NCBI RefSeq assembly: GCF_000378205.1
Contig: NZ_KB899406.1
Coordinates: 1-64,000, forward strand
Direction of reading: 5' to 3'
Source: Sediminispirochaeta bajacaliforniensis DSM 16054
GTDB lineage: Bacteria; Spirochaetota; Spirochaetia; DSM-16054; Sediminispirochaetaceae
DNA length: 64,000 bases
The position numbers and the translations under genes were made by a program. Below the pieces are notes generated by a model that saw only the letters and a list, made by a program, of their open reading frames with translations, was not told the DNA's origin and searched no databases. This document shows, piece by piece, positions 6,476 through 8,921 of the stretch (positions are counted from its first letter, which is position 1; each line of letters opens with the position of its first letter).

Positions 6476-7450
6476 ATGAAGAAGGTTTATGTTTCCAGAG
6501 CAATCTCGGATAAAGGGATCGAGCTGCTGCGCAGGCAGTGCGATGTTCGTGTACAGGCTGCGGACAGACCGGCCACAAGGGAAGAGCTTCTGGAAGGAGC
6601 CGACTGGGCCGACGGTTTGCTTTCGCTGTTATGCGATAAGATAGATGAAGAGGTACTTTCTGCAGGAGGCGGGCTGAAGGCGGTGGCCAATTATGCGGTC
6701 GGCTACGACAACATCGATCTTACCGCCGCAGGTCGCCTTGGAGTCGGGGTAAGCAATACCCCTGATGTCCTTACACATGCTACTGCCGAGATGGCTTGGG
6801 CACTACTTTTTGCGGTAGCCCGTCAGGTCGTTCCTTCCGACCGCCTGATGCGCAGCGGCCGGTGGCAGGGATGGGCCCCCATGGAATTTGTCGGCTGTGA
6901 TGTTACCGGAAAGACGCTCGGTATTATCGGTGCCGGCCGAATCGGCACCGCAATGGGATTGATGAGCAGTGGCTTCGGCATGAAGGTGATCTACTGGAAC
7001 AGAAGTGCATCCCCCCGACTCGAGGAGGGAGTGGGAGCGCAACGGGTTGAGCTTGATCAGCTGATTGAGGAATCTGATTTCATCTCGCTGCATCTTCCCC
7101 TGAACAATACTTCCCGGCATTTGATCGGAAGACCTCAGTTTGAGGCGATGAAACCGACATCGTGTCTTATCAATACCGGCAGGGGAGCTTTGATAGATGA
7201 GGCCGCCTTGGTTGATGCTTTGCGCAAGGGGAAGATTGCCGGTGCCGGACTTGATGTATATGAGTTTGAGCCTGCAATGAGCAAGGGGCTTGCGGATCTC
7301 GATAACGTGGTGATTACGACCCATACTGGTTCGGCAACAAGTGGTTCACGTGGAGACATGGCGGTAATGGCTGCGGAAAACCTTATTGCAATGCTCGACG
7401 GCAGGGCTGGTGCCCAGTGTCTTAATGCCGAGGTATTTCATCATAGGTGA
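6476..7450 (+). CDS. D-isomer-specific 2-hydroxyacid dehydrogenase
   Basis: A cytoplasmic NAD(P)H-dependent enzyme of 324 residues that interconverts 2-keto and D-2-hydroxy acids. The nucleotide-binding motif is LGIIGAGRIG in the middle of the chain. The catalytic Arg (NTGRGALIDE), Glu (YEFEP) and His (THTGSATSGS) are all present. The closest type by eye is glyoxylate/hydroxypyruvate reductase, but lactate-type activity cannot be excluded. ATG 6476, preceded by CTGGAG, is preferred; the in-frame extension to 6440 has no ribosome site. It lies head to head with rex, which suggests redox control of NADH recycling. Confidence 0.9.
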   Translation: MKKVYVSRAISDKGIELLRRQCDVRVQAADRPATREELLEGADWADGLLSLLCDKIDEEVLSAGGGLKAVANYAVGYDNIDLTAAGRLGVGVSNTPDVLTHATAEMAWALLFAVARQVVPSDRLMRSGRWQGWAPMEFVGCDVTGKTLGIIGAGRIGTAMGLMSSGFGMKVIYWNRSASPRLEEGVGAQRVELDQLIEESDFISLHLPLNNTSRHLIGRPQFEAMKPTSCLINTGRGALIDEAALVDALRKGKIAGAGLDVYEFEPAMSKGLADLDNVVITTHTGSATSGSRGDMAVMAAENLIAMLDGRAGAQCLNAEVFHHR

Positions 7451-7467: not shown

Positions 7468-7497
7468 TTGACAGAACTTGCTCCCTTCTGATATAAA
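7468..7497 (+). promoter_or_regulatory. Promoter of the uracil permease leader
   Basis: TTGACA at 7468-7473 and TATAAA at 7492-7497 are 18 bases apart. Transcription would start near 7504 and give a leader of about 130 bases. Confidence 0.75.
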
Positions 7498-7528
7498 TCC
7501 GACAATTTGGATAACAAAAGGAGGGAGT

Positions 7529-7594
7529 ATGGTTTTTTATATGTTGCCTGTGGGCGCGGGTTTTCCCTCCGACGGCTTTCCTTTTCTTTTATAG
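7529..7594 (+). CDS. Leader peptide of the uracil permease attenuator (21 residues)
   Basis: The frame starts at ATG 7529 after an excellent AAGGAGGG ribosome site and encodes 21 residues (MVFYMLPVGAG, then FPSDGFPFLL) ending in TAG at 7592-7594. Its last seven codons lie inside the 5' arm and loop of the intrinsic terminator. The coding sequence is T-rich, as in enterobacterial pyrBI leaders, where RNA polymerase pausing at low UTP lets the ribosome catch up and prevent termination. The peptide itself is probably not functional. Confidence 0.7.
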   Translation: MVFYMLPVGAGFPSDGFPFLL

Positions 7595-7616
7595 AGAAAA
7601 GGAAAGCTTTTTTTTT
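7575..7616 (+). terminator. Attenuator terminator before the uracil permease
   Basis: GCTTTCCTTTTCT (7575-7587) pairs without mismatch with AGAAAAGGAAAGC (7595-7607) around a 7-base loop and is followed by nine T residues. It lies between promoter and permease gene and overlaps the end of the leader peptide. Terminated transcripts would be about 110 bases long. Confidence 0.85.
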
Positions 7617-7637
7617 ATCCGTAATAAAGGAGGAACG

Positions 7638-8921
7638 ATGAAGGACAAGATCATTGGAGTAAGGGAACAGCCTGAGCTGAGGCGATGGATTCCCCTGAGC
7701 TTTCAGCATGTTTTTGCAATGTTCGGAGCAACGGTTCTTGTGCCGCTTTTGACGGGCCTGAGTCCTTCGACGGCACTTTTTACCTCAGGAATAGGTACAC
7801 TTTTGTATATCCTGATTACCGGGGGACGAGTCCCTGCATACCTCGGCTCCTCTTTTGCCTTTATTCCGCCGATTATTGCGATCTCGGGAAGCTTTGGAAT
7901 GGAATATGCTCTTGGAGCAGCATTTTGCGTGGGAATATTCTATCTTATTGTCGCCTTTATTATCAGTAAGGCCGGAACCGGCTGGATAGACCGTCTTCTG
8001 CCGCCTGTTGTGATTGGGACGGTCATCATGGTAATCGGCCTCAATCTTGCACCGACGGCGATGAATATGGCCATGAATGGTCCTGATGGCAGCTACAGCC
8101 TTGCATCGGTGATCATTGCCGTGGTCACCCTCAGCATCGCGGTGGTTTCCCTCCTTGTGCTGAAGGGGTTTTTTACCGTCATTCCGATTCTGATTGCCTT
8201 TTTCGGTGGCTATCTCTTTACTTTGGTTGCCGGCTCAATCTGGCCCGCTTTTTCCTGGATCGATTTTTCTTCGGTAAAGGAAGCAGCCTGGTTCGGTTTT
8301 ACGGCCCCAAAGATCCCGAAATTCTCCGTCGTTCCTATTATCACCTTTTTGCTTGTCAGCCTTGCGACCATTGCCGAGCATCTTGGAGATACCATGGTGA
8401 CCAGTAAGGTGGTGGGAAAGGACTTTCTGAAGGATCCCGGTATTCACCGAACCCTTGCGGGTGACGGTGCTGCAACCGCCCTTGCCGCCCTTTTCGGCGG
8501 GCCCCCCAATACGACCTACGGGGAGAATATCGGTGTTATGGCCATCACCAGGGTCTACAGCGTCTGGGTCATCGGAGGGGCAGCGGTGATTGCGATCATC
8601 CTCTCTTTTATCACCAAGGTCGGGGCTATCATCAATACGGTTCCCGTTCCGGTAATGGGCGGCATATCGATGATGCTTTTCGGGATTATTGCCAGTGCAG
8701 GTATCCGCACGGTCGTGGAAAGTGGCGTTGATTACACCTGCAAAAGGAATCTTACCATCAGTTCGGTGATCCTGGTGATCGGAATCGGCGGCGGAAGAAT
8801 TTTCTTTCCCCTGAACGAAAGCCTTCATTTTGAACTAAGCGGTGTTGCCCTTGCCACCCTCGTCGGCATCGTGCTGAATTTGATTCTCCCGAAAACGATT
8901 GACAGCCCGAAAGAGGAGTAG
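7638..8921 (+). CDS. uraA: Uracil permease (NCS2 family)
   Basis: A 427-residue inner-membrane proton symporter of the nucleobase:cation symporter-2 family with about 12-14 membrane segments. Family signs include QHVFAMFGATVLVPLLTG near the N-terminus, GSSFAFIPP, the ligand-site region TIAEHLGDTM, and GDGAATALAALFGGPPNTTYGEN. The TIAEHLGD and PNTTYGEN forms are those of uracil rather than xanthine or urate carriers. The ribosome site AAAGGAGG precedes the ATG. It is controlled by the leader-peptide attenuator just upstream, which fits uptake of uracil when pyrimidine nucleotides run low. Confidence 0.93.
   Translation: MKDKIIGVREQPELRRWIPLSFQHVFAMFGATVLVPLLTGLSPSTALFTSGIGTLLYILITGGRVPAYLGSSFAFIPPIIAISGSFGMEYALGAAFCVGIFYLIVAFIISKAGTGWIDRLLPPVVIGTVIMVIGLNLAPTAMNMAMNGPDGSYSLASVIIAVVTLSIAVVSLLVLKGFFTVIPILIAFFGGYLFTLVAGSIWPAFSWIDFSSVKEAAWFGFTAPKIPKFSVVPIITFLLVSLATIAEHLGDTMVTSKVVGKDFLKDPGIHRTLAGDGAATALAALFGGPPNTTYGENIGVMAITRVYSVWVIGGAAVIAIILSFITKVGAIINTVPVPVMGGISMMLFGIIASAGIRTVVESGVDYTCKRNLTISSVILVIGIGGGRIFFPLNESLHFELSGVALATLVGIVLNLILPKTIDSPKEE

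Follow-up and report, generated by a model that had tools for sequence, protein, structure and literature searches.

In Sediminispirochaeta bajacaliforniensis the gene for a uracil permease is probably controlled by a pyrBI-type, translation-coupled transcription attenuator. Attenuation of pyrBI is a textbook case from the enterobacteria; the mechanism is known, and what is new here is the phylum and the target gene. Our reading draws on the anatomy of the permease leader, its recurrence among related spirochaetes with leader peptides that are not conserved, the absence of a PyrR element, a start sequence like that of pyrBI and a parallel leader at pyrB, all of which can be read directly from the DNA. 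Because the design recurs with different tiny frames across spirochaetes and before pyrB, we hold it very likely to be a genuine switch, which would raise uracil uptake on pyrimidine shortage.

Anatomy of the permease leader

The window is the whole stretch of DNA analysed (64,000 nucleotides); its genome is referred to as G000 and that of a sister species as G003. The features of the leader and of the gene that follows it are:

7468 to 7473, plus strand: -35 box TTGACA, read from the sequence and unchanged in G003
7492 to 7497, plus strand: -10 box TATAAA after a spacer of 18 nt, read from the sequence and unchanged in G003
7504 to 7509, plus strand: AATTTG, predicted initially transcribed stretch at the predicted start, 7 nt past the -10 box and identical at E. 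coli pyrBI
7518 to 7524, plus strand: near-perfect Shine-Dalgarno (SD) sequence AAGGAGG for the leader frame, read from the sequence
7520 to 7526, plus strand: GGAGGGA within the SD, partner of 7564 to 7570 as predicted by RNA folding
7529 to 7594, plus strand: leader frame (ORF) of 21 codons, MVFYMLPVGAGFPSDGFPFLL, with its stop TAG (7592 to 7594) at the junction of loop and 3′ arm
7532 to 7537, plus strand: T6 tract in the sequence, a possible UTP-sensitive pause; TTCTTC in G003
7564 to 7570, plus strand: TCCCTCC, anti-SD inside the leader frame, from RNA folding; unchanged in G003
7574 to 7608, plus strand: stem-loop of an intrinsic terminator, 16 pairs and loop TAT, from scanner and folding
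7608 to 7616, plus strand: T9 tract of the terminator in the sequence, its first T also paired in the stem
7638 to 8921, plus strand: UraA-type NCS2 uracil permease of 427 aa, from profile and structure matches, with its ATG at 7638

Of known permeases, E. coli UraA is the nearest to that of the window. The window permease matches the solved UraA structures with an E value of 1e-111 and scores 463 bits against the NCBIfam uracil permease model, slightly below the model cut-off of 477; a second, distant NCS2 gene lies elsewhere in the genome. In an alignment to E. coli UraA, the YGENIG motif is kept and the AEHxGH motif reads AEHLGD. We take these to be binding-site motifs, one position of which presumably differs in the window permease. 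The substrate is likely to be uracil. In 12 genomes (L145 and L142–L153) no uracil phosphoribosyltransferase (Upp) above the curated cut-off was found, and each of these has instead an ORF of about 360–430 codons whose C-terminal part matches Upp.

The preliminary description of this DNA had reported a good promoter, a near-perfect SD and a 21-codon frame, all borne out by the sequence (TTGACA-18-TATAAA, AAGGAGG, 7529–7594). Its 13-bp perfect terminator with nine T residues holds as well: the arms at 7574–7589 and 7593–7608 form 16 pairs, 13 of them uninterrupted Watson-Crick pairs, with T9 at 7608–7616. It had also placed both the last codons and the stop of the frame in the 5′ arm and loop; the last codons do lie in the stem, but the TAG has its first base at the end of the loop and the rest in the 3′ arm. 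An intrinsic terminator is thereby found between a promoter and a pyrimidine gene, and it ranks first among the five plus-strand matches of a simple terminator scanner. The promoter at 7468–7497 was missed by that scanner, which accepts no -10 box without a T in sixth place. The leader folds at -45 kcal/mol against -31.8 kcal/mol for shuffles (z -3.6, equalled by 0 of 200 shuffles), a stability due mostly to the terminator. When the window leader alone was shuffled, an SD-led or 5′-proximal frame reached the stem with a chance of about 12%, so that the window frame by itself is not significant and its significance comes from the comparative set.

A 2-hydroxyacid dehydrogenase gene lies upstream of the leader on the same strand and ends at 7450, as would be expected if the terminator belonged to that gene, the short frame were there by chance and the permease were served by another promoter. 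We regard this as highly unlikely, since the TTGACA/TATAAA promoter, which G003 keeps intact, stands between the dehydrogenase gene and the terminator, and since many species have this arrangement in leaders whose sequences are unrelated.

Under the attenuator model, transcription would start at about A7504 (AAUUUGG), and a ribosome would bind the leader SD and translate the 21 codons into the terminator stem. With UTP plentiful, the polymerase would run ahead of the ribosome, the hairpin at 7574–7608 would form and transcription would terminate at the T tract. With UTP scarce, the polymerase would be slow in the U-rich leader, and the ribosome would catch up and cover the 5′ arm, leaving the permease to be transcribed. 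The AAUUU start would probably be a second UTP brake, through reiterative initiation at high UTP. Folding of the window leader also predicts pairing of 7520–7526 with 7564–7570, which is intact in G003, and the predicted hairpin can sequester the leader SD; it would shut off ribosome loading once the polymerase passes 7564–7570 and so sharpen the race between the two. The same switch design would operate at pyrB of this genome and at uraA or pyrB of related spirochaetes. Translation of the leader frame, ribosome-dependent antitermination and stuttering are each what we infer from sequence.

Leaders of related uraA genes

A permease-based collection comprised about 120 related loci with their upstream DNA, 111 of them non-redundant. 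Spirochaete leaders were kept by an automated filter where a promoter and then a terminator precede the permease, and 17 non-duplicate leaders passed; confidence is lowest for L019, whose AT-rich terminator is weak, and the leader of L096 failed the filter and was found by eye. The leader frame was defined as one whose start is SD-led or at most 8 nt from the predicted transcript start and whose stop is at most 5 nt short of the stem or lies further downstream. Such a frame is present in all of the filtered leaders, where 1.5 would be expected from shuffled leaders. A plainer first-ATG rule was applied to 17 leaders listed after checking by hand; it holds for 15, where 3.9 would be expected (P 1e-8), the failures being L037 and L048/L060, in which the SD-led frame has a later start. 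Both rules were chosen after inspection of the leaders and 6 of the 17 loci come from one genus, which weakens the P values but not the pattern.

It had been anticipated that relatives would keep the overlap of frame and terminator and not the peptide, and that relatives with the terminator and without the frame would count against the model. None of the latter kind occurs among the 17 non-duplicate leaders; the overlap is kept in 17/17, and leader peptides from different lineages bear no resemblance to one another. In G003 the promoter, SD, frame and terminator are all kept, and the frame differs from that of the window by three T-to-C changes, every one of which alters a residue. The window, too, has a translatable frame that runs into the terminator and a peptide whose sequence appears unimportant. 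Leader stops range from -4 to +102 nt from the stem start: they lie before the terminator in L036, L038 and L041, inside it in the window, L037, L039 and L119–L121, and far past it in L004, L009, L010, L023, L109 and L124. In L023, L004 and L109 the frame stops at or just short of the permease start, like pyrL before pyrB.

These stop positions bear on another class of leader. A short SD-led frame ahead of a terminator is also seen in trp/his-type leader-peptide attenuators, which respond to an amino acid or charged tRNA, but for the window such a reading is very improbable: there is no run of any regulatory codon, the peptides are unrelated, no conserved competing antiterminator was seen and the target is a uracil permease. 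The stop, moreover, is inside or at the stem, whereas in amino-acid attenuators over 20 bp separate the end of the leader gene from the terminator (PMC4824070). In E. coli pyrBI the terminator is within the 135-bp pyrL leader gene (PMC4824070), and it is this rule, not that of the amino-acid attenuators, that the stop of the window leader follows. Amino-acid attenuation was rejected on both codon runs and stop position.

The AUG is 5′-proximal in 10 of the 17 leaders (P 0.001), but counted by lineage this falls to 5 of 12 (P 0.1), so that the preference is suggestive. Six loci of one genus (L009, L010, L119, L120, L121 and L124) have leaderless frames, with starts at +2 to +3 relative to the predicted 5′ end; among the same six a TTTATAA tract ahead of the stem is invariant, and the position of the stop varies. 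By eye, the six-species alignment of this genus contains no conserved antiterminator beyond the terminator core and the TTTATAA tract. At L109 the leader frame (MKNKTILGVFNWPPFGRRIPLCFRYVIVLFGAPLAVPPL...) resembles a decayed copy of the N-terminus of its permease, and the attenuator there may therefore have arisen by partial gene duplication.

The transcription start

The predicted start in the window (TATAAA-TCCGAC-AATTTGG) is near-identical to that of E. coli pyrBI (TATAAT-GCCGGAC-AATTTGCC); E. coli K-12 has TATAATGCCGGACAATTTGCCGGGAGGATGTATGGTT before pyrL, and the window counterpart is TATAAATCCGACAATTTGGATAACAAAAGGAGGGAGTATGGTT. We take AATTTG to be the exact pyrBI start motif for reiterative transcription. 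The general signature of reiterative initiation, an A or G followed by a T run at 7–8 nt from the -10 box, is present as AATTTGG at 7 nt, at the predicted start. Among uraA promoters, AATT+G at 6–8 nt past the -10 box is found in 6 of 41, against 0 of 172 control promoters from the flanks (P 4e-5), and the looser [AG]A?TTT at the start in 11 of 41 against 6 of 172; most of the leaders lack the AATTTG start. At E. coli pyrBI the start is a site of UTP-sensitive reiterative transcription (PMC6245113).

In the uraA promoters of L040 and L042 the predicted start reads AATTTTG, and neither is followed by a convincing terminator or leader frame. These terminator-less promoters resemble the class of E. 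coli upp, codBA and carAB, and may be controlled by stuttering initiation alone. To our knowledge, that reiterative-transcription class has no attenuator. The window has a T run at the transcript start in common with it (PMC6245113) but differs in combining a reiterative-type start with an attenuator.

A parallel leader at pyrB

In the genome of the window, pyrB encodes a PyrB-PyrI fusion and is followed by a phosphoribosyltransferase gene, probably pyrE, and by that for OMP decarboxylase (PyrF). It has a pyrBI-like leader of its own:

L190 position 14921, minus strand: pyrB start, locus L130/L190 (G000:C4)

Like that of the window, this leader consists of a promoter (TTGCAA-17-TATACT) and a frame that passes through a terminator towards a pyrimidine gene. 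It differs in that its AUG lies at about +4 of the predicted transcript, in its lack of an AATTTG start, and in its frame of 53 codons, which runs past a T-rich stretch (GTTTTTCCGATGAATTTTTTATG) and through the terminator (ACCGGCCGTTGTGCCGGT and a T tract) to end on the pyrB ATG. In 404 kb of this genome, a sample chosen to include pyrB, the scanner found only three promoter-terminator-gene arrangements, of which two, at uraA and pyrB, include a leader frame. Similar pyrB leaders occur in three further genomes (L160, L163 and L164): the frames of L160 (first ATG) and L163 (SD-led, by eye) end at most 6 nt from the stem, and that of L164 crosses it. The pyrB gene of L128, from the same genus as the window, has a pyrBI-like leader too, in which a 53-codon frame begins close to the transcript start and crosses a terminator to finish on the pyrB ATG. 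By eye, the carA leaders of G000 and G003 have no terminator of the uraA/pyrB leader kind.

A T-rich tract before the stem is clear in L023, in L124 and in the pyrB leader of the window genome and weak in L041, L048 and L109. With the T6 of the window altered in G003, there is no conservation of a UTP-dependent pause as such, and U-tract conservation cannot in general serve to prove UTP sensing, the tracts varying among leaders. A set in which the overlap of frame and terminator is universal and U-rich pause tracts are not, and in which the peptides have no common codon signal, would also suit a translation-coupled attenuator that senses the general balance of transcription and translation (growth, translation stress or slow polymerase) and not UTP specifically. 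We consider this unlikely in view of the two genes that the arrangement precedes, uraA and pyrB, both of them pyrimidine genes, and of the enrichment of AATTTG-type starts at uraA promoters. That UTP is the sensed signal we infer from the identity of the genes, from the parallel leader at pyrB and from the motif at the start, the T-rich pause being variable.

PyrR and the exchange of sensing systems

Bacillus-type PyrR attenuation (RF00515) likewise places a leader terminator at pyrimidine genes, including that for uracil permease, and a Rfam scan located PyrR sites in eight Bacillota sister uraA loci (L044, L046, L047, L049, L051, L052, L055 and L058). That system needs the PyrR protein and a binding hairpin, and searches found neither here. 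The preliminary description had held that a PyrR-type element would speak against pyrBI-type control; in the same scan neither the window nor any of the spirochaete leaders tested gave a PyrR match at threshold, and the sub-threshold match at the window (23 against 54 bits) spans the terminator but leaves out the hairpin that PyrR binds. No PyrR protein above the cut-off was found in the genome (best 22 bits, cut-off 138). With neither RNA element nor protein found, PyrR-dependent attenuation was rejected, and its probability for the window is close to nil. No RNA family reaches the Rfam gathering threshold in the window; a check of the leader for a ligand-binding RNA or antiterminator gave no Rfam family at threshold and the predicted SD–anti-SD hairpin. 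Of the Bacillota loci, L046 and L052 have purine riboswitches nearby as well.

In the permease tree, the attenuator is present in 16 of 22 rows of one environmental spirochaete clade, which adjoins the Bacillota clade with PyrR sites. It is sporadic among Treponema relatives (L023, L096 and L109), and no clear attenuator was found in L008 and L035, of the same permease clade, nor in most Treponema. Given a clade of attenuators next to one of PyrR sites and the sporadic occurrence in Treponema, sensing systems appear, on the sequences, to have been exchanged at one permease gene. Exchange of sensing systems has been reported for other attenuated genes, in a text that has no spirochaete or pyrimidine case (PMC2965389).

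Discussion

The window leader shares with E. coli pyrBI (pyrL) its promoter, AATTTG start, SD, short frame into a terminator with T8–T9 and downstream pyrimidine gene (PMC4824070; PMC5021804; PMC6245113). It differs in controlling a permease and in belonging to another phylum, and its frame of 21 codons ends in the terminator whereas pyrL has 44 codons and ends 3 nt before its gene. Unlike the enterobacterial case, the T-rich pause is not conserved between sister species, and in many relatives the frame has no SD and begins close to the 5′ end. Comparison of the leaders lends strong support to translation coupling, and the initial reading of pyrBI-type attenuation is upheld by the 17/17 leaders, the lack of a PyrR element, the pyrBI-like start and the pyrB leader. 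We found no pyrimidine attenuator of a spirochaete in the open-licence literature searched, and one may have been mentioned elsewhere.

A broader proposition, about evenly poised in our judgement, is that the spirochaete pyrimidine regulon (uraA and the pyrB operon) is repressor-free and runs on pyrBI-type attenuation, either independently evolved or shared by ancient descent or transfer. It would include leaderless frames at or a few nt from the 5′ end, with translation coupled to RNA polymerase, and PyrR (in the Bacillota sister genes), the attenuator and stuttering alone would have taken each other's place at a single permease. The leaders are also a natural set, with stops before, inside or past the terminator and with an SD-led or 5′-proximal AUG, for testing what distance between ribosome and polymerase is needed against termination. 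The comparison also suggests an exchange of three sensing systems within one gene family. If the pyrBI logic does operate at uracil import and at pyrB of spirochaetes, start-site sequence included, nucleotide sensing through ribosome and polymerase coupling would be an old or repeatedly invented form of pyrimidine control that works without a regulator protein.
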